From Streptococcus australis (GTDB lineage: Bacteria > Bacillota > Bacilli > Lactobacillales > Streptococcaceae), in the NCBI RefSeq assembly GCF_901543175.1, contig NZ_LR594040.1, forward strand, positions 1,178,001 through 1,242,000: a DNA stretch of 64,000 nucleotides, in the 5' to 3' direction. Below the pieces are notes generated by a model. That model searched no databases. It saw only the letters and a list, made by a program, of their open reading frames with translations, and had not been told where the DNA came from. Positions within the stretch are counted from its first letter, which is position 1. Each line of letters opens with the position of its first letter. Below, in pieces: positions 10,792-23,940 of the stretch. Position numbers and translations under genes: made by a program.

Positions 10792-11520
10792 TTATATGAC
10801 ACTTTTCTCTAGTTCAAAAGCTACATAAGGTCCAATTAACTCATATCCTAAAAATTCTGCTACTTTTTTGGAAGCCTCGTTATGAGCATCCCAAAGAGGA
10901 ATCATATCTCTATTCAAACTCTCTAGAATCATTGCAGCACCAAGCTTTTTAGCAAATCCATTTCCTTGTTCGTTTGGTCTAGTTGCAACTTCCACTTCAA
11001 CTGCTCCACGGTAAACTAACCCTGAGGAAATCCCAGCAATTAGTTCATTATTTTTAAGAACCACAAAGCCAAATCCACCTTTCAATGCAAAATCCTGGTA
11101 GGACTCAAAATCTCCCTTTAAATCTTGTGACCATTCTTCCTCAGAAAAGCAGTTATAAATATGATTATCAATAGGCACAATACTGTAACCTTCCTCTAAA
11201 TGAGTAACTAGATCATTTAGAAATTCAACTTGAAAATTTGCCTTATCTTTAAAAGAATAGCGAGTAAAAGAAATTAGCCCCACTTTCTGATGCAGAAAAT
11301 TTTGCCAATTAGTATTTTCTGAAATAATAATCTTATAATCTAAACCATATTTCCTAACAAAATCTTCCCAAAATCTGGAATTCAACTTCCCTGCTAGGTA
11401 TAGAAAATTCCCAACATCATAAAAGCTTGTTGTCCTATCACTGTTTCGGTAGACAGTTCCGATTTGAGATTGAAGACCATAGAGAACCATATTTTTCTTC
11501 CATGTTTTAAATAGTTCCAT
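10792..11520 (-). CDS. GNAT-family acetyltransferase (PF12746-like)
   Basis: A 242-residue protein whose C-terminal half (about 130-242) carries a GNAT fold. The acetyl-CoA loop is RPNEQGNGFAKKLG, an R/Q-x-x-G-x-G/A-like motif, near 195-208. The terminal WDAHNEASKKVAEFLGYE pattern is typical of the GNAT_acetyltran (PF12746) group. The N-terminal half is a divergent helper domain. Its start overlaps the Nudix gene by 14 nt and has AAGGGAGA upstream. The substrate is unknown. It is the fourth gene of the operon downstream of the DUF2829 gene. Confidence 0.8.
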   Translation of the reverse strand: MELFKTWKKNMVLYGLQSQIGTVYRNSDRTTSFYDVGNFLYLAGKLNSRFWEDFVRKYGLDYKIIISENTNWQNFLHQKVGLISFTRYSFKDKANFQVEFLNDLVTHLEEGYSIVPIDNHIYNCFSEEEWSQDLKGDFESYQDFALKGGFGFVVLKNNELIAGISSGLVYRGAVEVEVATRPNEQGNGFAKKLGAAMILESLNRDMIPLWDAHNEASKKVAEFLGYELIGPYVAFELEKSVI

Positions 11521-12007
11521 TATCTCCCTTCTTCACCTTCCAATTTCTATAGCTTGTCATATCTAATTCTGGAAATCCTAGTAACTCTGCCTTAACCTGC
11601 AACACTAAAGGAGAAGCATTATCAGCAGTAATTTCTTCCAAACTCAACCAAAGTGCATTTGCTGAATCATTACTTCCATCAAGAACTTCATGAGGAAGTG
11701 ATTTTTGATAGCGTTCGAAATCAAGTACTATATCATAAAAGGCCATGATATGATGTACTGCAAAGTCTTGCCCATCTTCTTGAACCAGCACATCATAAAT
11801 CCTAGGATTAGCATAACCATTAACCTTATATCCCGTCTCTTCCAGAACTTCTCTCTTGAGGGTTTCTGTCAGCCCTTCACCTACTTCCTGGCTACCACCA
11901 GGTAGATCAAAACGATGTTGATAAGGACCTCTCGTTTTCTCAATGCAGAGTAACTTCCCATTTTCAAAGCAAACGCCATAAACACCAAAGTGTTTTTTGA
12001 TTTCCAT
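11507..12007 (-). CDS. Nudix hydrolase
   Basis: A pyrophosphohydrolase of the Nudix superfamily, 166 residues. The Nudix box starts at G38 and has E44, R52-E53, E56-E57 and G59, which fits GX5EX7REUXEEXGU exactly. Such enzymes clear damaged or signalling nucleoside diphosphate derivatives; the substrate cannot be told from this sequence. AGGAGGAG lies before the ATG. The gene is 10 nt downstream of the SDR gene and overlaps the GNAT gene, so it is in the same operon. Confidence 0.88.
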   Translation of the reverse strand: MEIKKHFGVYGVCFENGKLLCIEKTRGPYQHRFDLPGGSQEVGEGLTETLKREVLEETGYKVNGYANPRIYDVLVQEDGQDFAVHHIMAFYDIVLDFERYQKSLPHEVLDGSNDSANALWLSLEEITADNASPLVLQVKAELLGFPELDMTSYRNWKVKKGDNGTI

Positions 12008-12017
12008 CCAACTCCTC

Positions 12018-12716
12018 CTACTTCAAAGACCAGCCACCATCCACAGTCAAGATTTGTCCTTGCATGGCAGATGCGTGACCGCTAGCCAAGAATAAGCTGA
12101 CTTCTGCAATTTCACTTGGTTCAATCCAACGCTTGATAGGAGTTTCACTAGCCACCCAGTCTGCTAAGCCACCGGGTTCAAAGTCCGCAGCAGTCATGCC
12201 TGTCTTGACTGCTCCGGGAGCAATCCCAAAGACCTGAATCCCAGCATCTGCATAATCTAGAGCCAACTGCTTGGTAAAGCCAGCCAAGGCATGCTTAGAG
12301 GAAGTATAGGCGTGACCACCTCCGCCGGCTAAACTAGAAGCGATGGAGCACATATTGATGATGATTCCTTTTTTATTCTCCAGCATTTGTGTCAAATAAT
12401 AGCGAGTCAACTCAACAGGAGTCACGTAGTTAATTTCAAAAATTTCTTGAATTTCCTGCGCCGTTTGTTCCAAAAGTGGTTTGTAATCATCCAAAACTCC
12501 AGCAGTATTGCACAAAACATCCACCCGAGGACACCAGTCAAAAATAGGCTCCAAGTTCAATGTCAAATCTCTCTGTAAAAAGTGGAAATCACCCTGTAAT
12601 AGTGGATTTTCGCCTTGGTCAACTCCATAAACTTGATAGTCCTTCTCTAAAAAAAGTCGAGCTTGAGCCAGACCGATACCTGAACTCACTCCCGTAATCA
12701 ATACACGTCTAGTCAT
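12018..12716 (-). CDS. short-chain dehydrogenase/reductase (FabG-like)
   Basis: A classical SDR of 232 residues using NAD(P). The cofactor motif TGVSSGIG lies at 8-15, NTAG at 70-73, catalytic Ser near 127, and Tyr137 with Lys141 in YTSSK. Its C-terminus (GQILTVDGGWSLK) is typical of 3-oxoacyl-ACP-reductase-like SDRs. It probably does not replace FabG, which belongs in the fatty acid cluster; the substrate is unknown. Its start overlaps the end of the DUF2829 gene by 8 nt and lacks a strong ribosome binding site, which suggests coupling to that gene. Confidence 0.85.
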   Translation of the reverse strand: MTRRVLITGVSSGIGLAQARLFLEKDYQVYGVDQGENPLLQGDFHFLQRDLTLNLEPIFDWCPRVDVLCNTAGVLDDYKPLLEQTAQEIQEIFEINYVTPVELTRYYLTQMLENKKGIIINMCSIASSLAGGGGHAYTSSKHALAGFTKQLALDYADAGIQVFGIAPGAVKTGMTAADFEPGGLADWVASETPIKRWIEPSEIAEVSLFLASGHASAMQGQILTVDGGWSLK

Positions 12717-12945
12717 GCACTTCTACCCAATCCGTCGCCAAAACATCACAAGGTGTCGGACTCCACATGGAAAAACCTTCTCCTTCTCCAGACACGTTGA
12801 TTAGGAAATAAGGTGTCACTTCAAGTGCAACCCCGTTTTGTTCAATAGTGTCAAAAAGCTGCACATAGTTTTCAGCCCCTCCCCAACCAGTTCGTACATA
12901 TTTTTTCTTAGCCTTTAATCCAGGTAGGATTTCTTCAAATGTCAT
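12709..12945 (-). CDS. DUF2829 / Tad2-like domain protein (island target gene)
   Basis: A 78-residue protein of the DUF2829 family, now called the Thoeris anti-defence 2 (Tad2)-like family after phage proteins that sequester the Thoeris second messenger. Family features are the opening MTFEEILPGLKAKKKYVRTG, the Trp after it and the ending PTPCDVLATDWVEVHD. The first seven codons lie inside the left 21-bp att repeat. The ribosome binding site AAAGGAG and everything further upstream belong to the inserted island. Many bacterial DUF2829 genes are not proven anti-defence proteins, so the role here is open. It heads the SDR-Nudix-GNAT-PEP-ASCH operon. Confidence 0.8.
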   Translation of the reverse strand: MTFEEILPGLKAKKKYVRTGWGGAENYVQLFDTIEQNGVALEVTPYFLINVSGEGEGFSMWSPTPCDVLATDWVEVHD

Positions 12946-12946
12946 G
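12926..12946. repeat. left attachment site core (attL)
   Basis: A 21-bp sequence identical to 22857-22877. It contains the start codon and first codons of the intact DUF2829 gene. Island-side bases follow directly to the right. Confidence 0.88.
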
Positions 12947-13027
12947 TTCTTCTCCTTTGTTGTCTATAAACGTTGATTTAATAAGCTTTTTAGTCAGCCT
13001 TTGAGTTCTGAAATATAAATTTGTTCA

Positions 13028-13042
13028 CCTTTTTGTGGACTT
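13028..13042. repeat. candidate integrase arm site, left
   Basis: CCTTTTTGTGGACTT occurs here at the end of the integrase gene. It recurs exactly at 22742-22756, and its 13-bp core is inverted at 22799-22811. All copies lie within about 115 bp of an att core, which suggests arm-type integrase or excisionase binding sites. Confidence 0.45.
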
Positions 13043-14186
13043 ACAAGCTATTCATGGCTTTTTCAAAATATGAAACCGCCTCTTTTTCTTTATCCGCAGA
13101 TAGGTGGCTGTATATATCCATGGTCATAGCTAAAGTAGCATGACCTAAACGGTATTGTAATTCTTTATAGCTGATACCAGCATTTAGCAATAAACTAGCG
13201 TGAGTATGACGGAAAGCGTGAAAAGTAAAGCGAGGAATAGAAATCTCATTACAGCGTCTATCTAAAGCCTCCTGTCTAGTTGCCAGGTTCTGGTACTCTC
13301 TCGTAGGTGTTGCAAACACCACAGACGAAACACGCGCCCCTGACTCCAAATATAATTGGCGTTGTCTATTCTGGTAAAGACGTAACATGTTGACCGTTTT
13401 CTTGTCTATGCTGATTATCCTAACTCCTGCTTTGCTTTTCGGTGTACCTATTAGCTTTAATAACCTACTGTAATTCTTGTTAATGCTTATAGTTCCATTC
13501 TCAAAATCAATATCCGACCATTCCAGGGCTACTACTTCACCAAAACGGCAACCAGTAGCAAGTAAGACACTATACAGAACATAATCAAAATAATATCTAT
13601 ATTTCTTAAACGCCAGTTTTTCCATATGGAGCAACAGAGCCTTTAAGTCGTCTGAAGCTATGAACTTGATCGCTGTATTCTCACGTTTAGGCTGTTTAGG
13701 GAGAATAATATCCCTAGCTGGATTGAATGGCAAGAGCTGGAGAGATACCCCATACTGTAAGACACGCCTATTTATTGAATGAACCACCGCATAGTGAACT
13801 AGCTGAGTCGATAAATCATTGATAAAGCTTTGTATATAGCTAACAGATAGCTTGGTCAGTTTCAGAGTACCAAAGACAGGTATAAGATGATTGTACAGCA
13901 TTCTCTTAGTGTCTAAAAAAGTCTGAGGCTTTACTGTAAGCTGGTAACTGTCTAGCCATAGATCAGCTAACTCCTGATAATTTTTTACAGGTACTACTTT
14001 TGTCACCGTACAACCGTTCGATATAAAATCATCTTGCGCGTGCTTTGCTTTCTGCTTGACCTCTTTTTTTGTCCTACCCGTTACACTTGTTTTAGCTTTC
14101 TTACCTGTTACCTGGTCAACTCCTAAATATACATTAGCACGGTACACTGTTGTACCGTTTTTCTTTTTGACTTCAGTTATTTGCAT
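13041..14186 (-). CDS. int: tyrosine recombinase, island integrase
   Basis: A site-specific recombinase of 381 residues that would insert and excise the island at the 21-bp core. An AP2-like arm-binding region lies at about 1-55, a SAM-like core-binding domain at about 65-165 and the catalytic domain from about 175. Catalytic residues visible are R214, Lys near 252, H323 and R326 (HAFRHTH), H349 (LGH) and nucleophile Y359. No lesion is seen. It ends 95 nt before attL with no clear terminator, so its transcript may continue into the DUF2829 operon. The start has an AGAAAGG site upstream. Confidence 0.95.
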   Translation of the reverse strand: MQITEVKKKNGTTVYRANVYLGVDQVTGKKAKTSVTGRTKKEVKQKAKHAQDDFISNGCTVTKVVPVKNYQELADLWLDSYQLTVKPQTFLDTKRMLYNHLIPVFGTLKLTKLSVSYIQSFINDLSTQLVHYAVVHSINRRVLQYGVSLQLLPFNPARDIILPKQPKRENTAIKFIASDDLKALLLHMEKLAFKKYRYYFDYVLYSVLLATGCRFGEVVALEWSDIDFENGTISINKNYSRLLKLIGTPKSKAGVRIISIDKKTVNMLRLYQNRQRQLYLESGARVSSVVFATPTREYQNLATRQEALDRRCNEISIPRFTFHAFRHTHASLLLNAGISYKELQYRLGHATLAMTMDIYSHLSADKEKEAVSYFEKAMNSL

Positions 14187-14211
14187 ATTTTAAACCTTTC
14201 TAAAATACATC

Positions 14212-14242
14212 AGCAGGCAAGCTATTATTAAAAAGGTTTTAG
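14212..14242. repeat. 31-bp repeat, copy 1
   Basis: 29 of 31 bases match 16278-16308. Both start AGCAGGCAAGCT and end GGTTTTAG. A 10-bp piece (AGCAGGCAAG) also occurs inverted at 22690-22699. The copies flank the regulatory block of the island. Confidence 0.6.
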
Positions 14243-14365
14243 ATTGTGGTTTAAATCATGCTAGGGCTTCACAGATTGCCCTGTATTCGATTTTAAAGAG
14301 TCAGGCGGTAAATAATACCAGAGTTGGAAATAAGGCGGATACGGGGCTTATATGGGTAAATATTG

Positions 14366-14393
14366 AAAAAGTACTTATAAGTTCATACTTTTT
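14366..14393 (-). terminator. terminator after the repressor gene
   Basis: AAAAAGTA pairs with TACTTTTT, with A and T runs on both sides. It is placed about 220 nt after the repressor stop, so the assignment is moderate. Confidence 0.45.
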
Positions 14394-14616
14394 TTAAATC
14401 TTATATTGAACGCCAAGAAATCACGCGCAGAACGTGAAAAAACATGAATTTTTGAAGATTTCAAAAGCTAGAAAAACAAGTGCTTACAAGTCTTTCAATG
14501 GTTTTAAGTTATTTGGGTTCATGTTGACAAAAGTTGACATTTTCAGGGTATAACATACCAAAAAACTAGGAAAACTTATATTTCAGATTTTTACACCTAG
14601 TGGCGCGTGAGGCACC

Positions 14617-15204
14617 CTATTCAGCTTCGGGGTTGAAAATAAACATATCTATGTACTTAATTGTTGGTGAAATATCCCAGACTTCAAACGTTTCAGAAAG
14701 TTGTTGTTTTATATTATCTATCAATTCATTTTTAAATTGCACAGGCATATCATCAAAAATAGCAACTTGAGACATAGAGCCATTTAGTCTAACTTTATCC
14801 AATTGACTTGGATTGAATAGCTTATCAGGGTCTTTACTATACAAATAAAGAAATTTATATTCAAGAAGGTATTTCCTATCTCTCCCTCTTCTAAACTCTA
14901 GTAAAAGATAGCATGGTTCTTCAAATTCAGGAACAAATTCCCAATGTTCTTTGACCTCGGATAATGTATCAAAATTATCAAAGCCACATTGAATTTTTAC
15001 ATCATAAGCCCAAAAATCAAAGAATTCACTAGGAGAAACTTCTAGATAGTTACAAATTTTATCTATTGTTTGTAAGCTAATTTTATCAGTATTATTATTT
15101 GAAATTTTTGAAATAGTTGAACGAGCTATCCCTGTATCATTAAATAATTGGGTAGCCGTTACTCCTCTATCAATCATTAGTTTTGCTAAATTATTTCTAA
15201 GCAT
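14617..15204 (-). CDS. HTH XRE repressor, CI/Stl-like
   Basis: Probable master repressor of the island, 195 residues from the ATG at 15204, which has AAAGGAG 10 nt upstream; a GTG three codons earlier is too close to that site. An XRE helix-turn-helix fills about 1-60, with the recognition region IARSTISKISNNN. The remaining 135 residues are an unrecognised domain without the LexA-type Ser-Lys protease pattern. This suggests derepression by a partner protein, as with Stl of phage-inducible islands, rather than by RecA cleavage. It is divergent from the Cro-like gene, with both promoters in the 150-nt gap. Confidence 0.8.
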   Translation of the reverse strand: MLRNNLAKLMIDRGVTATQLFNDTGIARSTISKISNNNTDKISLQTIDKICNYLEVSPSEFFDFWAYDVKIQCGFDNFDTLSEVKEHWEFVPEFEEPCYLLLEFRRGRDRKYLLEYKFLYLYSKDPDKLFNPSQLDKVRLNGSMSQVAIFDDMPVQFKNELIDNIKQQLSETFEVWDISPTIKYIDMFIFNPEAE

Positions 15205-15227
15205 TAAAATCACGCTCCTTTAAATAC

Positions 15228-15256
15228 ATTTTAGCTTATACACTTCTTTTTTTCAA
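15228..15256 (-). promoter_or_regulatory. promoter of the repressor gene
   Basis: On the minus strand TTGAAA and TAAAAT are separated by 17 nt. The start of transcription falls about 15-20 nt before the repressor ATG. Confidence 0.65.
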
Positions 15257-15274
15257 GATATTTTATTTTTTTAC

Positions 15275-15302
15275 TTGACACGATAAAAATATAGTGTAAA
15301 AT
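15275..15302 (+). promoter_or_regulatory. early rightward promoter of the island, with possible operator
   Basis: TTGACA and TAAAAT are separated by 16 nt. The promoter lies inside an imperfect inverted repeat (TTGACAC to GTGTAA). Just downstream, 15317-15330 holds TAGCG followed by the perfect palindrome TAGCGCTA. Either could be the repressor operator. Confidence 0.65.
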
Positions 15303-15368
15303 AAAGAGTATAATTTTAGCGTTAGCGCTATTATTTTTCTTAAAATAAACAAAAAGGAGTTTAAAGCT

Positions 15369-15566
15369 ATGGAAAATAATTTCCGTGTCTTATTGGCAAA
15401 GCAACGCAAAAAAGTTGCTGACGTTCATTTAGCGACAGGTATCTCAAAAAGTACACTTATTTCACTGTATTATGAGCGCACAAAGCGCCCAGATATTGAA
15501 ACCTTGCAAAAGGTAGCCGAGTATCTAGGCGTAACCATTGACGAACTACTTACAGTCGAAGATTAG
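15369..15566 (+). CDS. Cro-like HTH XRE regulator
   Basis: A 65-residue protein that is essentially one XRE helix-turn-helix (about 6-60, recognition region TGISKSTLISLYY), a typical length for Cro-type regulators. AAAAGGAG precedes the ATG. It is the first rightward gene and probably opposes the CI/Stl-like repressor to commit the island to excision and replication. The next gene (Rha-like) starts 10 nt after its stop. Confidence 0.82.
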   Translation: MENNFRVLLAKQRKKVADVHLATGISKSTLISLYYERTKRPDIETLQKVAEYLGVTIDELLTVED

Positions 15567-15576
15567 GAGGTACAGC

Positions 15577-16206
15577 ATGAACATTGTCTACATGGACGGT
15601 AAGAAAGAGCCGTACACCACAAGCGAGATCATCGCTGAATGTGCTGAAGTTACTCATCACACAATACAAGAACTTTTAAGAAAGCATAAAGCTGACTTTG
15701 AAAGCTACGGAATTATCGCATTTGAAATGCGTAAATTAGACGGCAGAGGACGACCAATGAAAATCTATCGCCTGAACGAACAACAGGCAACCTTGCTGAT
15801 CACTTACCTAAAAAATACCGAACCCGTTAGAGCTTTTAAAAAAGCTCTAGTCAAAGCATTTTTTGAAATGCGGGACGAGCTAACTCAGTTTAAGCTGCAA
15901 CGTGCTTTAGAAAAGCTAAAGCGTAAGACTTTGCATGACAGCATTAAGAACTGGGAACAAAAACCAAAGCGCGCGCATAGCACTATCACAAATCTTTTGC
16001 TAAAAGGCACTAGCGGTATGAATAAAAAGCAACTGATGGCAGCGCGTGGCGGTCTGACAGGTATCGATAGCTTGACCAGTACCGAGCTTGTCAGATACCA
16101 AGCCTTGGAAGATATGGCTATCGCTATGATTAACTTGGGTATGACCTATCAGGATATTAAGTCTATGGTCTTCAGACAAAAAGAAAACGCACCACAAGGC
16201 GCGTGA
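15577..16206 (+). CDS. Rha-family phage regulatory protein
   Basis: A 209-residue protein with an N-terminal Rha domain (about 5-100), recognised from YTTSEIIAECAEVTHHTI, the following FEMRKLDGRGRP and LLITYLKNTEPVRAFKKAL. Rha proteins are phage regulators that interfere with infection in some hosts. The C-terminal half (about 110-209) has a KilA/antirepressor-like look and may mediate partner contacts. Start at 15577 chosen for TTAGGAGG 6 nt before it; an earlier in-frame start lies inside the Cro-like gene. It is co-transcribed with the early genes. Confidence 0.82.
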   Translation: MNIVYMDGKKEPYTTSEIIAECAEVTHHTIQELLRKHKADFESYGIIAFEMRKLDGRGRPMKIYRLNEQQATLLITYLKNTEPVRAFKKALVKAFFEMRDELTQFKLQRALEKLKRKTLHDSIKNWEQKPKRAHSTITNLLLKGTSGMNKKQLMAARGGLTGIDSLTSTELVRYQALEDMAIAMINLGMTYQDIKSMVFRQKENAPQGA

Positions 16207-16277
16207 GAGCAACAAAAAAGGCTTAGCAATAACCACACCGCAGAGCCTTTCACACTATCACTAAAACATAATAAACA

Positions 16278-16308
16278 AGCAGGCAAGCTTTTATTAAAAG
16301 GGTTTTAG
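16278..16308. repeat. 31-bp repeat, copy 2
   Basis: Matches 14212-14242 at 29 of 31 positions. It lies in the 278-nt gap after the Rha-like gene; I saw nothing else in that gap except the ribosome binding site of the next gene. Confidence 0.6.
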
Positions 16309-16484
16309 TAAAGATTTATACCTAGATTATAGCATATCTGGGACACTTTGACCATACGGAGAGCGCCAACTCTTAAAACTGGTATCACCTCACGCTTTCA
16401 AACTTTGGCGACTCTGAGCGCGAGGCCAGTGACAAGAAAAACATTCAAAAGACTCTAATTACATAAAAAAGCGAGGTAATTACC

Positions 16485-16787
16485 ATGAAAAAACAAGACC
16501 AAAATCAAACAGTTGCTCTGACAGTTAAGTAAATCAAAGAACAAGGCCAACGCACTACCGACGTTATGACGAGAGTAGACACTCTAAAAGGCTATGCTAA
16601 CAGTCTTATGCTAGCCATGAACAGCGAGCCAGACAAAGCCGTTCTATTAAGCTGCCTAAAAAACTTTCTAAGCCAAGTATATGACCAGATGGATGTAATG
16701 TATCAGGAACTAGACGCCGTGGCATATCAGCTACTGGAATGCGACAATCCCGAAGAATTAAAAGCCTACCTGAGAGTGAAAGGATAA
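16485..16787 (+). pseudogene. small island protein gene with an in-frame ochre stop
   Basis: Codons 1-15 (MKKQDQNQTVALTVK) follow a GCGAGGTAA ribosome binding site and end at TAA (16530-16532). The same frame then stays open for 85 codons to 16787, including a helical segment DTLKGYANSLMLAMN and SQVYDQMDVMYQELDAVAYQLLE. The intact protein would have about 100 residues. A restart at ATG 16566 is possible but has no ribosome binding site. The simplest reading is a nonsense substitution of a CAA or AAA codon. Function unknown; it resembles small helical proteins in phage early regions. Confidence 0.6.
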
Positions 16788-16798
16788 GGGTTATTAGC

Positions 16799-16969
16799 AT
16801 GAGCGAGCTACTAGGTGCAATTTTAACACTACTACTTTTCTTTCTAGCTGGCGTATGTGCTGAGCTGTTTCACTCCTGGGCTATTGCTTACAGACGCCGA
16901 GGATATATCACCAAACGGCAACTCAGAAAGATGGAAAAATGGCTTGAAACAATGGAGGGTAGAGGATGA
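16799..16969 (+). CDS. small membrane protein of the island
   Basis: 56 residues with one strong transmembrane segment (about 5-25, LGAILTLLLFFLAGVCAEL) and a basic cytoplasmic tail (RRRGYITKRQLRKMEKW). The start at 16799 is preceded by AAGGGTTATTAGC. Its last codons overlap the next start as ATGA, so it sits in a tightly packed early operon. The family is not recognised and the function is unknown. Confidence 0.6.
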   Translation: MSELLGAILTLLLFFLAGVCAELFHSWAIAYRRRGYITKRQLRKMEKWLETMEGRG

Positions 16970-17298
16970 CGGAGCTTGAAGAAAGAATTTTAAGACTGAT
17001 ACCTGTAGGGGCGGACGAGCCACGCGCAGGGCGGGATATAGCCAATGTGCTAGGGCTAGAGATGAGAGCCTTACGAGATCATATTCTCCGGCTTATCGTT
17101 CGCTATGGTATCCCCATTGTGGCCAAACGTGGGGCAAGTAACGGCTACTATATCCCTGCTAACGATACCGAACGCCTAGCAGGGATCAGGGAGCTAAAGG
17201 CTCAGTATGACACAGAAGGAAGGCGTCTAGATGTGCTTATCAAAGCTGATTTAGAAAGCTATAAAGAGCTGCTGAAGGGAGCTGATAAGAATGTTTAG
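16966..17298 (+). CDS. winged-helix DNA-binding-like protein
   Basis: A 110-residue protein with a predicted winged helix at about 1-65: ILRLIPVGADEPRAGRDIA, then helices LEMRALRDHILRLIVRYG and a wing AKRGASNGYYIP. A charged helical tail follows. Proteins of this type occur in the replication or regulation block of streptococcal phages. It overlaps both neighbours (ATGA upstream, 8 nt downstream). No enzyme motif is seen. DNA binding is inferred from the fold pattern only. Confidence 0.6.
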   Translation: MTELEERILRLIPVGADEPRAGRDIANVLGLEMRALRDHILRLIVRYGIPIVAKRGASNGYYIPANDTERLAGIRELKAQYDTEGRRLDVLIKADLESYKELLKGADKNV

Positions 17299-17569
17299 TC
17301 TCAGCAAAGAAAGTGAAAACAGTCTAAAACGTGGCATATTAAAACTGGTAGAAAACTTTCTAAAAGACTATTTAAAGCCTAAACAACGTATAACAGGGCT
17401 AATGACACCTAAACAACTCAAGGAAGAGTTAGAGATAGATTACAACACCTTAAAACGTTGGGAACGCGCAGGGCTAAAAAGGTGCACTCCTCCTATCGAG
17501 GATACACGCAAAGTCTTTTATAGAATCGGTGATATTCTAATATTTCTAGGAGCTGATAAAGAATCATAA
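17291..17569 (+). CDS. MerR/excisionase-like small HTH protein
   Basis: 92 residues. After a 35-residue helical lead, a MerR-type helix-turn-helix follows at about 37-85 (MTPKQLKEELEIDYNTLKRWERAGLK, then VFYRIGDILIFLG). That pattern is found in excisionases and phage early regulators. It could be the missing excisionase of the island, but it lies in the replication block rather than near int, so this is a guess. It ends 10 nt before the replisome organiser gene. Confidence 0.55.
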   Translation: MFSLSKESENSLKRGILKLVENFLKDYLKPKQRITGLMTPKQLKEELEIDYNTLKRWERAGLKRCTPPIEDTRKVFYRIGDILIFLGADKES

Positions 17570-17579
17570 GGAGTAAAAC

Positions 17580-18359
17580 GTGGCAAGAACAAAAATATAT
17601 TTTTGGCTAAAAATTGATAAGAAATTTTTTGATAATATTTTTATCAAGAGACTAAAGACAATACCGGGTGGGTACACCATGACAGTTATTTATATTAGGC
17701 TCATGCTAGAGAGCTTGGAGAGTGACTGTATTTTATACTATGAGGGCTACTTTGATAATCTTAAGGAAGAGTTAGCCCTAAAATTAGATGTATCAGAAGA
17801 TGATATAGATATGACCATGGCATACTTTACAAAATGCGGTTTAATACAGATTGACGAAGATAAAAACGCAGAACTACCCCAGGCTAAAGCCCTAGTACAG
17901 CAGGAAACTAACCAAGCAGCATACATGCGAGAATATCGGAAACAGCAACGAGAACAAAAGGAAAATCTTACAATGTTACCCGAAGACCTCACAACGTTAT
18001 CTATGTGTAAGACAGAGATAGAGATAGAGATAGAGTTAGAAGAAGAGATAGATAAAAAAACTTCTTCTGCTCCTACTGCTGAAATCTCTAACTATTACCA
18101 AAAGCGTATAGGGGTTATGGATGGGCAACAATATCAAATACTGACTGACTATCTCACTCTTGACGGTATAGAGCTAGAGGCCATAGAAAAGGCTGCAGAT
18201 AACGGCAAGCGATCTTTTAGCTATATCAATTCAATACTGAAGAACTGGCGACAGAATGGCATTAAAACCATGACACAAGTCGAATCTGAACAGAGACAGT
18301 TTCAGCAAGAGAAACAAGGTCAGTCTGGCGATGATATTCAAGACCCCTTTATCTACTGA
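17580..18359 (+). CDS. phage replisome organiser, N-terminal domain protein
   Basis: A 259-residue replication initiator. The N-terminus (KIYFWLKIDKKFFDNIFIK, then PGGYTMTVIYIRLML) is the Phage_rep_org_N domain. A charged linker includes a run of Glu-Ile repeats (EIEIEIELEEEID, about 141-153) encoded by GAGATA-like units. A DnaD-like C-terminal domain (about 160-235, YINSILKNW) follows. It starts at GTG with AAGGAG 6 nt upstream. With the DnaC-type loader 15 nt downstream it would load the host helicase at the island origin, whose position is not certain. Confidence 0.85.
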   Translation: MARTKIYFWLKIDKKFFDNIFIKRLKTIPGGYTMTVIYIRLMLESLESDCILYYEGYFDNLKEELALKLDVSEDDIDMTMAYFTKCGLIQIDEDKNAELPQAKALVQQETNQAAYMREYRKQQREQKENLTMLPEDLTTLSMCKTEIEIEIELEEEIDKKTSSAPTAEISNYYQKRIGVMDGQQYQILTDYLTLDGIELEAIEKAADNGKRSFSYINSILKNWRQNGIKTMTQVESEQRQFQQEKQGQSGDDIQDPFIY

Positions 18360-18374
18360 CGGAGAGGAGAAACA

Positions 18375-19199
18375 ATGGAATTACTGAATACAGACCAGCT
18401 AAACGAAAAAATAAAGGTCACTGATGAGCTTTGCCCAACTCATCAGATTAACCTAGTACAATTCAAAAAGCCAGATGATTATACATCACCCTACTGCATG
18501 GAATGTACTAGGGTGAATATTAAACAGACGGAGCTAGAGGGCGTAGAAAAAGCTCTAGGGCATGATCTGAACTCTTCAACCTATGATGTGCTAGCGCGTG
18601 AAAGTACGGTGTCAAATGAGCTGAGAGAAGCCTCTTTTAGCACTTTCAAAGCTGAGACAAAAGAGGAACACGAGGCCAAGGAGTTTGCTATCAAGCAAGC
18701 TAAGCTGTACCTAAATGGCATGACAGGAAACACGCTGATTATGGGCAAACCAGGCACTGGTAAAAGTCATTTATGCTATTCCATGGCCAAAGCCATCAAC
18801 GAGGGCTATAAGTCTAAGAATGACCCTAAGAGCGTCCTCTTTGTCAGCATTGCTGAAATCGTCACGCGCATTCAGTCAGGCTGGCAGTATAGGCAGAGTG
18901 ATTTTACAGAGTATGACGCCTTGAAGCTGCTGACTGAAGTTGACTATCTCTTTATTGACGATTTAGGTACAGAAAGCGTTATGAATAGCCGAAAAGATGA
19001 GGCTAATAACTGGGTACAGACCTTTCTTTTCAAGATTTTTGATAGGCGGGAAACAACCATCATCAATACCAACCACAACGGAAAAGAGTTGGCCAGAATT
19101 TATAATGACAAGCTAGTCAGTCGAATTGGCAAACGGTCAGAGGGGAATGTATACAACATGACAGACATCAAAGACAAGAGGATGAGGCGTAATTTTTAA
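18375..19199 (+). CDS. DnaC/DnaI-type helicase loader ATPase
   Basis: A 274-residue AAA+ ATPase that delivers the replicative helicase. A possible zinc site (C20, H23, C41, C44) lies in the N-terminal part. Walker A is GKPGTGKS (124-131) and Walker B LFIDDLG (192-198). The sensor region IINTNHNG and an Arg finger region SRIGKRSEG follow. The GGAGAGGAGA ribosome binding site and 15-nt gap show co-translation with the replisome organiser. The pair is typical of phage and satellite replication modules. Confidence 0.9.
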   Translation: MELLNTDQLNEKIKVTDELCPTHQINLVQFKKPDDYTSPYCMECTRVNIKQTELEGVEKALGHDLNSSTYDVLARESTVSNELREASFSTFKAETKEEHEAKEFAIKQAKLYLNGMTGNTLIMGKPGTGKSHLCYSMAKAINEGYKSKNDPKSVLFVSIAEIVTRIQSGWQYRQSDFTEYDALKLLTEVDYLFIDDLGTESVMNSRKDEANNWVQTFLFKIFDRRETTIINTNHNGKELARIYNDKLVSRIGKRSEGNVYNMTDIKDKRMRRNF

Positions 19200-19223
19200 C
19201 CAAATAAAGAAAGGAGGAAGCCC

Positions 19224-19682
19224 ATGATAGAACCAGTATACTTTGAACAGGCAGATCAGGGACTGGAGGAACTCAATCGCAAACGTGACGATTTTATGAC
19301 AGATGAAACACCAGTATGTCTTGAAGATACGCCTAAACTGATTGAACTAGGTGAGAAGCTCCGGACGGAAGACACCAGCATAAATACCTATGAGTTATAC
19401 AGACACCCTGAAGCGCGTGCAAAGTTATTCGCCCAAATCGCGGAAGCCTGCTTCTTGCTAATTGCAGATAGTTCACCAGTACCAGTGCAGCCAACACAAG
19501 CACAGCGGATACATTTTTGCGAGTACTTGGAAGGACAGTTCCAGAATATCATTAAGAAGTTGATTGCAGGAACTGACAAGCAAGTTCTGGAGTCTTTACT
19601 TGAAGCTTTACAACTGCCCAAAGAAAAGCAAGCTCAGTTTGTCCGTGATGTGGTAGTAAGTGGCTTACTCAGTGAAGAATAG
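19224..19682 (+). CDS. hypothetical island protein
   Basis: A 152-residue acidic, mostly helical protein preceded by GAAAGGAGGAAGCCC. I do not recognise a domain. The middle part (YELYRHPEARAKLFAQIAEACF, about 53-74) and QKPKEKQAQFVRDVVV-like C-terminal helices suggest a small helical bundle. It is the last gene before a terminator and so the end of the first rightward operon. Similar proteins follow replication genes in streptococcal satellites, but no function is known to me. Confidence 0.6.
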   Translation: MIEPVYFEQADQGLEELNRKRDDFMTDETPVCLEDTPKLIELGEKLRTEDTSINTYELYRHPEARAKLFAQIAEACFLLIADSSPVPVQPTQAQRIHFCEYLEGQFQNIIKKLIAGTDKQVLESLLEALQLPKEKQAQFVRDVVVSGLLSEE

Positions 19683-19686
19683 TAGC

Positions 19687-19709
19687 AAAGGGGCATTGCC
19701 TCTTTTTGT
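19687..19709 (+). terminator. terminator of the island early operon
   Basis: An 8-bp stem (AAAGGGGC against GCCTCTTT, one G-U pair) with loop ATT and T run. Confidence 0.7.
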
Positions 19710-19770
19710 TGTTTCACTACTACTGAACCCAATCAATTTGGGTTTTTCCATATAGGGGTATTTTGAGAGA

Positions 19771-20289
19771 ATGAAAGTTATTAAATCAATAACCATAGAG
19801 ACATTTATAAAACCAATGAAAAACAAAAATATCAGTCATGGTATAGCTGAGTTGGACGGTAGAAAACTGGAAATAGACTTAGATAACCTGTATATCACCT
19901 TTGGAAGTAATCATTTTGATTTAGCAAGTATACCAGGAACTAAGGGAGGTAATCGCTATTTCTTTCTCTGTCCTATTTGTGGTAATCGATGCAGAAAACT
20001 CTATAAGAGACTTTTGCTATATGGTTGTGGATCATGCCAGAAAATACACAAGACAACACTGAACCGAAGTAAGACAGATTGTCAATACTATTGGGAGCTT
20101 GCGCTTAGGGAAGCTAGAAAGGTAGAACCAGGTTGGAGTCCCAAACGTGGCGGATATATGTTTGACAGTTTTCCTGAAAGACCAAAGTATATGAAACGTG
20201 ACAAGTATGATAAGCATTACCAAAAGTTTGTGAACTACACAAAGAAAGGAGATAGTTTTTGGCTGAATGGTTTAGGATCACTCCGATAA
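19771..20289 (+). CDS. zinc-ribbon protein of unknown function
   Basis: A 172-residue basic protein. A zinc ribbon is formed by C67-C70 (CPIC) and C86-C89 (CGSC), with an extra Cys at 74, flanked by aromatic and basic residues typical of nucleic-acid binding. The tail (RPKYMKRDKYDKHYQKFVNY) is strongly basic. The ribosome binding site is weak (GAGAGA directly before ATG), so the start is uncertain. The gene stands alone between a terminator and the repeat-rich region and may be cargo or a late regulator. Confidence 0.55.
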   Translation: MKVIKSITIETFIKPMKNKNISHGIAELDGRKLEIDLDNLYITFGSNHFDLASIPGTKGGNRYFFLCPICGNRCRKLYKRLLLYGCGSCQKIHKTTLNRSKTDCQYYWELALREARKVEPGWSPKRGGYMFDSFPERPKYMKRDKYDKHYQKFVNYTKKGDSFWLNGLGSLR

Positions 20290-20525
20290 TTTGTAGTAGG
20301 GTGTAATTTACCAAACAAATAAATACTACATATTAGACGGTTTAAATGTTAAAAAAGCTAGATATATCAAGGATTTAAGTAAGTAGAGCGTTCCAAAAAA
20401 AGGGTGAGGTAAGGAGGAGGTTGCGTATTTAAAAATACTAAGATTTTACAAAGGTACAGGACTTTTTTCTAGTGATAGAACCCTAAGATCACCCTAAGGT
20501 ATCGACACTTTTAGAACCATAGAAC

Positions 20526-20579
20526 GGTAAGGTTTTGGTAAGGTATCGAAGTTTTACAATGGTGAGGTTTTGGTTAGGT
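20526..20579 (+). repeat. paired GGTnAGGT iteron-like repeats
   Basis: GGTAAGGT at 20526 and 20537, then GGTGAGGT at 20561 and GGTTAGGT at 20572; another copy is at 20403. Within each pair the motifs are 11 bp apart, about one helical turn, and the pairs are 35 bp apart. The spacing is what a protein bound to one DNA face would need. Confidence 0.6.
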
Positions 20580-20621
20580 AGTGGCAAAAAATATGCCTGA
20601 CAAATGGCAGGGTTATGTGTG

Positions 20622-20717
20622 TTGAACTCCGAGCGAACGCCGAGAAAATAGCTCTTGAACAGAGAAGGAACTGAGAAGATTATATGGCTTGAACCTCGAG
20701 CGAACATAGAGAAAACG
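20622..20717 (+). repeat. three degenerate 33-bp direct repeats
   Basis: Copies start TTGAAC at 20622, 20655 and 20689, a period of 33-34 bp. The first and third share CGAGCGAAC and GAGAAAA; the second is more diverged. Read as codons each gives L-N-x-E-R/G-T, but stops interrupt two of them. Confidence 0.55.
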
Positions 20718-20789
20718 CAAAAAAAGCCAAAGCAATCCGCCTCAGCTATAATTAACACAATAAAATTATACCATACAGGAGGCCAAAGT

Positions 20790-21209
20790 ATGACACCAGA
20801 GCAAATAAAAGAAAAACTAGAGGGTATTAAGTGGATAAATAAAGAAATAGAGGGCTTATATTTAGAGCTTGCGGCTTTAGAAAGTGGTATTATCAAAAAG
20901 CTAGAAATGACCACTACCAGAGTACAAACAAGCAGGGTAAATACAGCAGAGAATAACCTTATAAGTGTTCTGAAGCTAAAAGAGGACACTTTACAGAGAA
21001 TTGAGCGACTTACTGAGGAGAGAATGGAAATATCTAGGTTGATCGATAAGCTGGTTAATCCTCTTGAGCGTTCTGTTCTAAGACTTTTTTACTTGAATAA
21101 TCTCGACGCTTGGGAGGTAGCTGAGGAAATAGGGAAATCTAAATCTTCGATATATAGTGTAAGGCAGGAAGCTATAGAACACTTAACAGGTATAGTAAAT
21201 GGAGATTGA
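20790..21209 (+). CDS. DUF1492/ArpU-like phage transcriptional regulator
   Basis: A 139-residue protein with a long coiled-coil N-terminus (about 1-95, many Leu/Ile/Glu) and a C-terminal sigma-70 region-4-like helix-turn-helix (NPLERSVLRLFYLNN, then AWEVAEEIGKSKSSIYSV). This is the DUF1492 pattern, related to ArpU/RinA late-gene activators of phages. Start at 20790 chosen for CAGGAGG 8 nt upstream; the frame is open further back through the 33-bp repeats but without a good start. In a satellite it may activate or hijack late transcription; that is inference. Confidence 0.78.
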   Translation: MTPEQIKEKLEGIKWINKEIEGLYLELAALESGIIKKLEMTTTRVQTSRVNTAENNLISVLKLKEDTLQRIERLTEERMEISRLIDKLVNPLERSVLRLFYLNNLDAWEVAEEIGKSKSSIYSVRQEAIEHLTGIVNGD

Positions 21210-21431
21210 TTTAACCTTAGCACAGAGACTAGTTCGTATAGGATACCCTATGCTTCGTATTTGCTCCCTATTTTGCTTTGTTTCGTACTAGATGACTAAA
21301 ACACCATGGATAAACTAGAAGTCCTTAGAAACGATTCTGGGGGCCTTTGTGATTTGAGAGATAATAAGTATTATCCCTTTACAGTACGTGTAATACGTGT
21401 TATAATAATATTGTCAGGAGGTAAAAGCGCT

Positions 21432-21611
21432 ATGCCTATGACACAAAAAGAGATGGTCAAACTCCTTACTGCTCATGGTTGGATAAAAACCAAAGGCGGT
21501 AAAGGCTCCCACGTTAAAATGGAGAAAGAAGGGGAAAGACCTATCACAGTCCCTCATGGTGAACTAAATAAGTACACTGAAAGAGGGATAAGAAAGCAAG
21601 CAGGACTGTAA
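21432..21611 (+). CDS. hicA: HicA-type toxin
   Basis: An mRNA interferase of the HicA family, 59 residues, with the dsRBD-like fold and catalytic His27 in GKGSHVKM, followed by RPITVPHG and the LNKYTERGIRKQAG helix typical of the family. AGGAGG lies 11 nt before the ATG. It precedes hicB by 42 nt. Just upstream, ACGTG recurs within GTACGTGTAATACGTGTTA overlapping a TATAAT (about 21405), a likely HicB operator. As in many elements it may stabilise the island or act on infecting phage. Confidence 0.9.
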   Translation: MPMTQKEMVKLLTAHGWIKTKGGKGSHVKMEKEGERPITVPHGELNKYTERGIRKQAGL

Positions 21612-21653
21612 TAAAGGCAGTCCCCCGCTTGTCTTTGATTTTGGAGGTAAACT

Positions 21654-22106
21654 ATGCTTGTCACTTATCCAGCTTTATTTTATTATGACGATACAGACGG
21701 AGCAAACGCCCCTTATTTTGTCACTTTCCCAGACTTTGAGCATTCAGCAACCCAAGGCGAAGATATGGCTGACGCTATGGCAATGGCCAGCGATTGGCTC
21801 GGTATTAACCTAGCTGATTATATCGAGAATGGGCGAGAAATTCCTACCCCTACCCCTATTAACGCTCTATCTTTGGCAAATAATAACCCTTTCCGTGATG
21901 ATGAGGATATAGAGCTAGTTTATGACCCTAGCAAGTCTTTTGTCTCTATGGTTATGGTTGACGTAGCGGAGTATCTAGGTAGTCAAGAGCCTGTAAAGAA
22001 AACCCTAACTATCCCACGTTGGGCGGATACTTTAGGACGTGACCTAGGTTTGAACTTCTCACAGACCCTAACAGACGCTATTGCTGATAAAAAAATCCAT
22101 GCTTAA
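21654..22106 (+). CDS. hicB: HicB-type antitoxin
   Basis: A 150-residue antitoxin with the partial RNase-H-like HicB domain at about 1-70 (YPALFYYDDTDG, YFVTFPDFEHSATQG, DMADAMAMASDWLG) and a C-terminal DNA-binding part (about 110-148, LTIPRWADTLGRDLGLNFS), probably HTH or ribbon-helix-helix. TTGGAGG precedes the ATG. It neutralises HicA and should autorepress from the ACGTG repeats before hicA. The pair sits at the cargo end of the island. Confidence 0.9.
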   Translation: MLVTYPALFYYDDTDGANAPYFVTFPDFEHSATQGEDMADAMAMASDWLGINLADYIENGREIPTPTPINALSLANNNPFRDDEDIELVYDPSKSFVSMVMVDVAEYLGSQEPVKKTLTIPRWADTLGRDLGLNFSQTLTDAIADKKIHA

Positions 22107-22222
22107 TAATTAACTATGATATAATTGACTTATAAACAGAGCTTTTCCATCTCCCCTTGAAACAGTTCATTCTGCAGTAGGAGGTGGGACGGTTCTGTTT
22201 TTACCATAAAGGAGCATTTAAG

Positions 22223-22432
22223 ATGGCAAAAGTTAAAGAGAAATGGAACCCAACAATATCCCATATTGTCCCTAAAGGTACCAAACTAGCTGACGGTACA
22301 ATATTAGACAAAGAAACCACCTTATCACAAGAAGAATTTGATAAAAACCCTCCTGTTATTCCAGCAGGACATCCTTTTTATAATATTTGTGCTGGGATAA
22401 TACAAGAAAAAATAGAGAAAGGCGAACTATAA
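22223..22432 (+). CDS. small hypothetical cargo protein
   Basis: 69 residues, soluble, with TISHIVPKGTKLADGT near the N-terminus and EEFDKNPPVIPAGHPF in the middle. AAAGGAG precedes ATG 22223. No domain is recognised. It follows hicB by 116 nt that include a possible -10 (TATGATATAAT-like near 22120), so it may have its own promoter. It is the last gene before the right island end. Confidence 0.5.
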   Translation: MAKVKEKWNPTISHIVPKGTKLADGTILDKETTLSQEEFDKNPPVIPAGHPFYNICAGIIQEKIEKGEL

Positions 22433-22537
22433 AAATCCGATAGGATTGCGCGTGACAATCGCGTGAAACATTATTGTTGACGTTAACATAATTGATAACC
22501 ACGCGCTTTTTAGCGTTTCTCTTTTCGAGTGGTACCG

Positions 22538-22546
22538 TGGTATAAT
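22538..22546 (+). promoter_or_regulatory. extended -10 promoter at island right end
   Basis: TGGTATAAT on the plus strand with no gene downstream. It would produce the candidate short RNA at 22553-22624. Confidence 0.45.
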
Positions 22547-22552
22547 GTAATC

Positions 22553-22624
22553 ACAGTTGGAGGCTTGCATAGTCTAGCCGATTAAGGAAAGTTAACCCAT
22601 GGAGGTCATACACTCCCTTTTTTT
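22553..22624 (+). ncRNA. candidate small RNA of the island
   Basis: Begins 7 nt after an extended -10 and ends at a short hairpin (GGAG/CTCC, 22601-22616) followed by seven T. A first hairpin GGCT/AGCC is formed at 22562-22579, and GGAGG occurs twice. No frame is present. The terminator stem is only 4 bp, so the end is doubtful. Confidence 0.3.
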
Positions 22625-22741
22625 GGTATAATAATCCTATCAGATAAGCAAAAGCAACTAAAAAAGCGTAGCTGATGACTACGCTAGTTCTTGCCTGCTG
22701 AACTCGTAAATTATTGACCTATTTTAGGTCTTTTTTACTCC

Positions 22742-22756
22742 CCTTTTTGTGGACTT
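22742..22756. repeat. candidate integrase arm site, right
   Basis: Exact 15-bp copy of 13028-13042 on the same strand. A 13-bp inverted copy lies at 22799-22811. Located 100 bp inside attR. Confidence 0.45.
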
Positions 22757-22843
22757 TGGGAGAATATTAAAGGTCATTTGTGACTATGTTTTTTCAAAAA
22801 GTCCACAAAAATAAAGCCTATAAACTCCTATTTGAAGCCATTC

Positions 22844-22876
22844 CTAGACACTTTTCAGGATTTCTTCAAATGTCAT
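22844..22876 (-). pseudogene. 10-codon stub of the DUF2829 gene at attR
   Basis: ATG followed by TFEEILKSV and TAG. The first seven codons are identical to the intact gene at 12945; the last three come from the island. The native ribosome binding site AAAAGGAGAAA and promoter lie immediately upstream. It marks where the original gene was cut from its promoter. Confidence 0.75.
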
Positions 22877-22877
22877 G
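22857..22877. repeat. right attachment site core (attR)
   Basis: 21 bp identical to 12926-12946. Beyond it to the right the sequence resumes chromosomal, with the original upstream region of the DUF2829 gene. Confidence 0.88.
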
Positions 22878-22911: not shown

Positions 22912-22920
22912 ATTATAACA
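22912..22920 (-). promoter_or_regulatory. original extended -10 promoter of the DUF2829 operon
   Basis: TGTTATAAT on the minus strand, about 36 nt before the stub start codon. It now transcribes into the island end rather than into the intact gene. Confidence 0.6.
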
Positions 22921-22975: not shown

Positions 22976-23902
22976 CTACGGCAAATCGTTCCCTGCAGCA
23001 AGATAAATTTCATACCATTCTTTTCTTGTTAAGCTAAAGTTTGCCGCTTGGCTAACTTCTCTCAAATGCTTAGGATTTGTTGTACCTACGACTGCCTGCA
23101 TTTTAGCTGGATAACGCAATATCCAAGAAATTGCAATAGTTGAAGGAGTTACTCCATATTTAAAAGCTAAACGATCAAGTACTTGATTCAAAGCTTGAAA
23201 TTTCTCATTTCCAACAAAATTCCCTTTAAAATACCCGAATTGTAAGACAGACCATGCTTGAATGACCACATCGTGTAATTTGCAATATTCAAAAATGTTG
23301 CCATCTCGCATAGTTGCTTGACTATCTTCCATATTAACATGAAAACCTGATTCGAATCCTGGAGTAAAAGCCGCACTCAATTGTAGCTGATTAACAGCTA
23401 ACGGCTGCTTGACATCTTTTTTAAGCAACTCCATCATCATAGGATTTTGATTAGAAACTCCAAAATCTCGAACTTTACCTTGTTTATAAAGGAGATTAAA
23501 GGCTTCTGCTACTTGGTCAGCTTCCATCAAAGCATCTGGTCGATGAAGAAGCAAGCTATCTAGATGTTCAATCTTCAATCTTTGCAAAATACCGTCTACT
23601 GATTTTATGATATAGTCCTTAGAAAAATCAAAATAGGTGAATTCTTCAATGCGAATTCCACATTTTGACTGAATCCACATCTCCTCTCTTAAATCTGGAC
23701 GATTTTTTAGGACAAGACCTAACAGTTCTTCACAACGACCACGACCATATATATCAGCCAAGTCGAAGGCATTGATTCCAACAGAAAGAGCTGTTTCTAC
23801 AAGCTCTTCAACTTCTTTTACAGACTTATCTTTTATTCTCATCATTCCGAGAACAATTTCTGATAATTCTTTGTCTTCTTGACCAAGAGTTATGTATCTC
23901 AT
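22976..23902 (-). CDS. aldo/keto reductase (YdhF-like)
   Basis: An NADP-dependent oxidoreductase of 308 residues on the AKR barrel. The catalytic tetrad D47, Y52, K80 and H120 is complete (FDLADIYG, WIQSK, LLLHRPD). Family length and the ending (AISWILRYPAKMQAVVGTT) are normal. The ATG at 23902 has GAGGAG 9 nt upstream; a TTG one codon earlier is less likely. The gene has its own promoter and terminator within 48-bp repeats on both sides, so it looks like a one-gene insertion. The substrate is unknown. Confidence 0.9.
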   Translation of the reverse strand: MRYITLGQEDKELSEIVLGMMRIKDKSVKEVEELVETALSVGINAFDLADIYGRGRCEELLGLVLKNRPDLREEMWIQSKCGIRIEEFTYFDFSKDYIIKSVDGILQRLKIEHLDSLLLHRPDALMEADQVAEAFNLLYKQGKVRDFGVSNQNPMMMELLKKDVKQPLAVNQLQLSAAFTPGFESGFHVNMEDSQATMRDGNIFEYCKLHDVVIQAWSVLQFGYFKGNFVGNEKFQALNQVLDRLAFKYGVTPSTIAISWILRYPAKMQAVVGTTNPKHLREVSQAANFSLTRKEWYEIYLAAGNDLP

Positions 23903-23940
23903 CAATTTTTTCTCCTCTAATTTCTACTGTTCTTCCCTTC

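Follow-up and report, generated by a model that had tools for sequence, protein, structure and literature searches.

What becomes of a host gene when a phage satellite inserts precisely at its start codon, and does the identity of that gene disclose what the satellite does there? These questions are raised by a 9,931-bp island in the chromosome of Streptococcus australis (assembly GCF_901543175.1), within a stretch of 64,000 nucleotides hereafter called the window (contig NZ_LR594040.1, positions 1,178,001 to 1,242,000). The island, with a GC content of 0.387 compared with 0.414 in the rest of the window, is seated at the beginning of a gene for a DUF2829 protein, which is followed by an SDR gene (Table 1). 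The best explanation of the data as a whole, with a probability of roughly 0.7, is that the satellite integrase recognizes the start-codon region of DUF2829 and that, once the satellite is integrated, the DUF2829-SDR operon is transcribed from the island. The original prediction, made from the DNA letters alone, stands with respect to a satellite-type element, its exact boundaries, the start-codon site and a real attachment site (attB) in the host; its proposal that the site ties the satellite to an anti-defense locus does not hold.

The attachment site and its operon

The direct repeat first noticed around the island, AGGATTTCTTCAAATGTCATG, is indeed exact over 21 bp, and a PF11195 gene encoding 78 amino acids starts at its left copy. 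The first 20 bases of this core have only two copies in the 1.93-Mb genome, so the pair is not a product of chance. The island ends are 77% alike over 57 bp, with AAAGGAG located a few bases before an ATG at both. An uninterrupted attB, on which the original prediction depended, exists: the rejoined window flanks align unbroken over the junction in 88 fetched loci, with the longest alignments showing 80–84% identity over about 1.6 kb. This sample combines the core loci of the same genome, 30 loci from the core search of the genus, the best 80 of 286, locus L113, and loci from the integrase search and the fetched elements, so that it is weighted towards close relatives and may contain some genomes twice. 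A search for the same core in other genomes, also suggested at the outset, finds the 21-mer with at most two mismatches in 143 of the 284 genomes of the genus, in 138 of them as a single copy. With attL and attR present in the window and attB empty in relatives, the integration is site-specific.

The target is anything but accessory. DUF2829 is present in 266 of the 284 genomes, and the SDR gene follows it in all 110 loci with DUF2829 (a set in which the window's own genome is counted twice and close relatives are over-represented). The median ratio of nonsynonymous to synonymous substitution rates (dN/dS) is 0.006 for DUF2829 compared with 0.048 for SDR (248 pairs from 30 sampled loci); these values are rough, since dS is close to 1 and only pairs within a dS range of 0.05 to 3 were kept. 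Homologs with at least 70% identity extend to Lactococcus and Enterococcus, and a DUF2829 protein is listed in a protein-expression table of S. suis (PMC8125046). Predicted structures of the protein had a mean pLDDT (predicted local distance difference test) of 49 at first and 91.6 with a broader alignment. As judged from these comparisons, the DUF2829 protein is a conserved cellular protein that belongs to the host core genome.

The same site is used recurrently. Integrases matching at E 1e-60 or better occur in 129 of the 284 genomes, and 16 of the 17 that are at least 76% identical to the window's lie beside the start of DUF2829, all oriented alike, with the start codon 94–96 bp past the integrase stop. 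In a tree of 33 integrases, all 16 fall into one clade (99/98) together with those of Javan365, L165 and L132; the DUF2829-site label does not form one clean clade (four changes). The 13 elements with both ends identified, the window's included, span 9.87–13.83 kb; for L146, L160 and L161, the left end alone was found in the stretch searched. These relatives differ blockwise: the integrase is common to all, and exchange affects the genes for the repressor, for replication and at the right end. In two of the 13 (L151 and L152, the latter with an assembly gap in its stretch), a remnant resembling a left end adjoins the right end, which points to an earlier element. Left-end-like sequences with no integrase match nearby lie at L151:13134 and L152:14232-14431 as well as upstream of DUF2829 in L097 and L065 (cut by the contig end), and are possible remnants.

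Exchange of promoters at the junctions

As far as the sequence can tell, the insertion leaves the DUF2829 coding region whole, cuts off its native promoter and provides it with a leader from the island, complete with a ribosome-binding site. An extended -10 element (TGnTATAAT; TGTTATAAT in the window) lies within 60 bp of the ATG, some 25–40 bp before it, in 74 of 87 distinct unoccupied upstream regions (among which likely island remnants, e.g. L097, are still included), compared with none of the 16 occupied ones. Conversely, a GGAG-type ribosome-binding site is present in 14 of the 16 occupied left ends. The DUF2829 leader is collinear with the leftward integrase gene; no terminator and no TATAAT were found in the window's left end, and in all 13 islands a terminator is absent between the integrase stop and the attL core under the same rule that detects one 171–194 bp inside attR in 12 of them. 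The stems of these right-end terminators differ (AGCGTAGTCATCAGCTACGCT, AGCACCCCACAAGGTGCT and close variants). The displaced native promoter of the window now faces a 10-codon open reading frame (ORF) and the terminator. Given the removal of the native promoter and the supply of a ribosome-binding site by the island, the satellite probably takes over DUF2829 expression. Near both ends, a motif, AAGTCCACAAAAA, recurs at constant distances and looks like the arm sites of the integrase.

This arrangement suggests a reciprocal mechanism. In the excised circle, the leftward integrase transcript would cross attP and end at the terminator just beyond. Integration would insert the host operon ahead of this terminator, so that leftward island transcription enters DUF2829-SDR, and the captured host promoter would run into the right-end terminator for as long as the island stays integrated; excision would give the native promoter back to the operon. 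Because the operon lands before the terminator, integration and excision would swap the promoter of a near-universal operon rather than simply knock it out.

Related integrases at other start codons extend the picture. The left ends of 72 integrases were compared (30 integrase-search loci, two fetched elements and 40 further matches from the upper ranks), and in 36 of them an ORF of 60 or more amino acids has its ATG 93–99 bp past the integrase stop. This start-codon class consists of 16 cases at DUF2829, eight at dut, five at mutL, two at one unknown family, and one each at sdaAB, trpS, a QueA-like gene, an unknown gene and the kinase-like ORF of L165; sdaAB, trpS and dut were named by NCBIfam on one or two examples, and mutL, the QueA-like gene and the remaining dut rows by inspection of N-termini. 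At L165:14891-16300, a DUF2829-type leader and first codons precede the kinase-like ORF, which shares only the first codons with DUF2829. In the other 36 left ends, the integrases are about 50–52% (26 cases) or 59–64% (10 cases) identical to the window's and are seated at other places, in many cases ahead of what looks like a host promoter; TATAAT occurs within 130 bp in 15 of the 35 long-enough left ends of this group, compared with one of the 36 that make up the start-codon class. In one member of this group, L182, the integrase is broken and dut follows at a larger distance. Under a loose definition, 30 of the 36 left ends of the start-codon class have a Shine-Dalgarno-like string within 20 nucleotides; those without it are one sdaAB row, one dut row, two mutL rows and the two rows of the unknown family. 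Because one integrase family is found at the start codons of mutL, dut, trpS and sdaAB, what the targets have in common is a start codon and not a function in defense.

That a left end of this kind has to be compatible with expression can be argued naturally from the trpS-site relative. Tryptophanyl-tRNA synthetase is indispensable, and a single trpS was found in this genome, so the left end in front of it must permit expression; a copy of the trpS start region is present at the right end of this element, and a script search found no such right-end copy of the start region for L164 and L165. A tentative generalization, which we consider somewhat doubtful, is that a start-codon-seeking integrase family gives each target a new leader, that the island becomes the sole source of transcription for the host gene in the lysogen (DUF2829-SDR in the window; trpS, dut and others in relatives), and that the terminator makes the exchange reciprocal. 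If so, a satellite seated at an indispensable gene would be addictive, in that the cell would be punished if the left end decayed or was lost imprecisely, but not if the island excised precisely.

Two other outcomes of integration have to be weighed. The conserved sequence might merely offer a safe landing site, with a small and inconsequential change in expression; the 21-bp core indeed lies within a gene of 266 of the 284 genomes, and islands are found again and again where conserved genes start. A neutral site, however, accounts poorly for the retained ribosome-binding site, the fixed spacing of 93–99 bp and the terminator slot beyond attP, which suggest selection on the outcome of integration, and we regard it as rather unlikely. 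Alternatively, integration might silence DUF2829-SDR and growth-phase excision reactivate it, as SpyCIM1 acts at mutL, and the native promoter is likewise removed at DUF2829. Yet the window's left end has a well-placed AAAGGAG before the ATG, whereas the mutL-site loci L176 and L177 have none and L133, L134 and L166 have a more distant AAAGGG; the DUF2829 reading frame is open in all 16 occupied genomes; and the trpS-site relative could hardly survive with a silent gene. Such an off switch is therefore unlikely. The features that would set a 'keep on' design apart from the 'switch off' at mutL are seen at the junctions: a good ribosome-binding site, the absence of a terminator ahead of the gene, and a terminator beyond attP.

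Several observations nevertheless weigh against transcription of the operon from the island or against its generality. SpyCIM1 silences mutL rather than driving it (PMC4689407). No minus-strand promoter match is listed in the gap between the repressor and integrase genes (14187-14616), which contains a weak minus-strand terminator-like site (14437-14421). Promoter-like matches in 12900-15400 are in excess (20 on both strands, compared with 8.7, standard deviation 2.5, in shuffles), and they include minus-strand ones in the left end and, at 13733-13705 (10 of 12), inside the integrase gene; hence an internal promoter, as in SpyCIM5, may act instead of integrase read-through. Two occupied left ends (L119 and L129) have weaker ribosome-binding sites, one island of the 13 (L158) lacks the right-end terminator, and the 79% identical integrase of L165, a second copy in one genome, is the exception that sits at another ORF. 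Finally, the host genome has no match to TerL_ATPase and a single weak match to phrog_2, a profile that also matches 11 of 14 controls; the match lies within an 820-aa frame taken for SecA by inspection of 200 bases, so no resident helper is shown.

Gene content, cargo and the anti-defense question

Scans of the 16 island ORFs against Pfam and PHROGs bear out the gene list given originally (integrase, repressor and Cro, Rha, replication genes, DUF1492 and HicAB) and detect no virion (head, tail, portal), terminase/packaging or lysis family; four of the 16 have no family in either library. No packaging-interference or terS family was detected in these scans (cos sites were not searched). The size, the integrase, the lysogeny control, with divergent repressor and Cro-like genes, and the replication genes fit a streptococcal phage-like chromosomal island (about 7–20 kb), and the element is apparently an intact phage satellite of this kind, of the group that targets 5' ends. 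Its kinship suggests that it would be mobilized by a helper phage. The MerR-like helix-turn-helix (HTH) protein, with a homolog in 12 of 15 other islands or island fragments compared, is a candidate excisionase. Three imperfect 26-bp direct repeats before DUF1492 (20476-20580) are a possible origin or operator, and a 39-bp direct repeat (87%) occurs just upstream of the integrase gene (14204-14242) and downstream of Rha (16270-16308).

Table 1. Coordinates of the target operon, the junctions, the island genes and related loci (window positions unless a locus is named)
Feature	Position	Strand	Remarks
GNAT acetyltransferase, last of presumed operon	10792..11520	-	PF12746, E 3.8e-71
NUDIX-like gene, next in operon	11507..12007	-	named by inspection; variable among relatives
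SDR, 3-oxoacyl-ACP reductase-like	12018..12716	-	NF005118, 388.9 bits; overlaps DUF2829 gene by 8 bp
DUF2829/Tad2-like host gene, 78 aa, integration target	12709..12945	-	PF11195, E 2.6e-19
attL core, 21 bp	12926..12946		AGGATTTCTTCAAATGTCATG, exact direct repeat; DUF2829 start codon and first codons
Island left end, integrase stop to att core	12947..13040	-	one weak promoter-like match (9 of 12) at 13039-13012
Island ribosome-binding site for DUF2829	12952..12958	-	AAAGGAG
Possible integrase arm-type site, left	13030..13042	-	AAGTCCACAAAAA; 0 mismatches, position 105-106, 13/13 islands
Tyrosine integrase, 381 aa, intact	13041..14186	-	PF00589, PF14659, phrog_1
HTH repressor, cI-like position	14617..15213	-	PF13443, E 7e-17
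Cro-like HTH protein	15369..15566	+	PF13443, E 3e-13
Rha-type regulator	15577..16206	+	PF09669, E 1.6e-16
Small ORF	16566..16787	+	no family (Pfam, PHROGs)
Small ORF	16799..16969	+	no family (Pfam, PHROGs)
Phage protein of unknown function	16966..17298	+	phrog_2113
MerR-like small HTH protein	17291..17569	+	PF13411, E 3e-4, just under its cut-off
Replisome organizer, DnaD-like	17580..18359	+	PF09681, PF07261
DnaC-like helicase loader	18375..19199	+	phrog_50, E 5e-60
Satellite protein without family	19224..19682	+	homolog in 10/15 other islands or fragments
Satellite protein without family	19771..20289	+	homolog in 10/15 other islands or fragments
DUF1492, phage late-regulator-like	20790..21209 (scanned as 20655-21209)	+	PF07374, phrog_36
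HicA toxin	21432..21611 (scanned as 21306-21611)	+	PF07927, E 4e-15
HicB-like antitoxin	21654..22106	+	PF15919, phrog_497
Phage protein of unknown function	22184..22432	+	phrog_3624
Intrinsic terminator reading inwards	22665..22685	-	about 171-192 bp inside attR
Possible integrase arm-type site, right outer	22744..22756	-	0-1 mismatch, 135-137 bp from right end, 13/13 islands
Possible integrase arm-type site, right inner	22799..22811	+	inverted repeat; at most 2 mismatches, 6/13 islands
10-codon ORF created at attR	22844..22876	-	MTFEEILKSV
attR core, 21 bp	22857..22877		AGGATTTCTTCAAATGTCATG, exact direct repeat
Displaced native promoter of DUF2829 operon	22912..22920	-	extended -10, TGTTATAAT
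Aldo/keto reductase, host gene upstream of empty site	22976..23905	-	PF00248; adjoins DUF2829 in many uninterrupted relatives
Start-codon-seated relative, trpS	L163 / L131
Start-codon-seated relative, sdaAB	L130
Start-codon-seated relatives, dut	L136, L141-L143, L171-L173, L180
TIR + DUF4231/SLATT pair	L150:4089-4918	-	beside satellite integrase
TIR + DUF4231/SLATT pair	L159:12588-13612	+	beside satellite integrase
TIR + DUF4231/SLATT pair	L113:1646-2670	-	beside satellite integrase

A degenerate full prophage, to which the phage-type repressor, Rha and replication genes could point, is highly improbable and was rejected: the same-site relatives are of similar size (9.9–13.8 kb) and layout, and the best 20 nucleotide matches are satellite records of 9.5–14.6 kb.

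The slot between the integrase and repressor genes is perhaps a small defense hotspot. It holds a ThsB-like TIR gene with DUF4231/SLATT beside the integrase in two of the 13 islands (L150 and L159) and in Javan365, the TIR of which is 100% identical to that of L159; other islands carry Abi_2 (L157, Abi_2/AbiD), SLFN_AlbA_2 (L155) or RhuM (L154, PDC-S05) at this place, and the window's slot is empty. Satellites of S. intermedius and phages of Streptococcus, Staphylococcus and Enterococcus have related TIR-SLATT pairs.

The original proposal of a link between the satellite and an anti-defense or signal-sponge locus, together with the further idea that control of a Tad2-like sponge would serve TIR-based defense cargo of the island itself, could draw on the PF11195 match, Tad2 (the subject of PMC12043709) being an anti-Thoeris sponge, and on the TIR-SLATT pairs. 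The DUF2829 protein of the window shares this Pfam domain with Tad2 of SPO1 and others, but the resemblance is distant (profile match to solved chains, E 2e-4): solved Tad2/Gp34.65 chains are 88–101 aa long, and the 78-aa host protein is several residues shorter over the first half of the aligned region. Profile rows for pentatricopeptide, alpha-solenoid and dynein, some of which outscore the Tad2 rows, were taken for chance or repeat matches. At the limits used, PADLOC and NCBIfam give no family for the protein. A Tad2 gene would be expected on a phage or mobile element, whereas this DUF2829 gene is a chromosomal core gene that lies outside the island except for the att core, and the 69 phage records that match it all stay below 60% identity (best 53%). 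ThsB-TIR is sparse (27 of the 284 genomes, several by weak matches) and has no match in this genome. The cargo is no better guide: the same TIR-SLATT pair is found in S. intermedius satellites with integrases about 66% identical, of the mutL type, and in ordinary prophages; other islands fill the slot differently, and that of the window holds no ORF. Three of these S. intermedius strains are listed with a mutL-site island in PMC4129442. With a near-universal, strongly constrained DUF2829, the link to Thoeris or anti-defense is extremely improbable and was rejected, as was the TIR-SLATT cargo as evidence for it. A Tad2-like name alone does not make DUF2829 an anti-defense locus, a tempting over-reading that is corrected here.

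Relation to known streptococcal islands

The closest records are satellites of the same genus. A megablast search with the element returns 127 phage records, all from Streptococcus, the best 20 of which are Javan satellite phages; among the 339 records of the integrase search, 98% identity is reached by Javan365 (S. oralis SK304) and by Javan267 (S. infantis), with 17 further records within 80–90%. The element as a whole is matched over 48% of its length at 91.5% by Javan365 and over 44% at 88.6% by Javan267; the likeness is modular, and the remaining genes differ, with Javan365 carrying a primase and the TIR-SLATT cargo, both of which the window lacks. The Javan365 record starts at the integrase stop and hence excludes its att site.

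A precise, recurrent target in a near-universal operon adds to the gene starts at which streptococcal islands are known. PMC4129442 reports such islands at the 5' ends of mutL, uvrA, recF, metE and manA, and the S. pyogenes prophage NZ131.1 near the promoter of a hypothetical gene, Spy49_0371. Javan529, from S. pyogenes strain NZ131, has an integrase 84% identical to the window's and is probably the satellite record of NZ131.1; M6_Spy0382 of another S. pyogenes strain is annotated as a DUF2829 protein, with a locus number neighboring that of Spy49_0371, which we infer to be the DUF2829 gene. Pneumococcal satellites lie upstream of ychF and uvrA, and their excised circles have been measured (PMC10383233); further literature includes PMC13376191, PMC3542284 and PMC6813308. 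DUF2829 is not named as an att site in the available portions of the literature covered, outside of which lies the insertion-site list in the supplementary tables of PMC6813308.

Also among the closest known systems are SpyCI, including SpyCIM1 at mutL, and related streptococcal chromosomal islands, which (PMC3430984, PMC4129442) share with the island of the window the small size, the integrase and replication genes, the absence of virion genes, the insertion at a 5' end and the separation of the target from its promoter. The target differs (mutL versus DUF2829), and the integrases of the mutL-site relatives are 61–67% identical to that of the window. The left ends differ too: the one in the window offers a good ribosome-binding site, whereas SpyCIM1 blocks mutL (PMC4689407); for SpyCI, PMC3430984 describes a rescue promoter, and SpyCIM5 is a precedent for a promoter inside the integrase gene. 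The island in S. australis is thus a known kind of element, a streptococcal chromosomal island that targets 5' ends, at a new target site.

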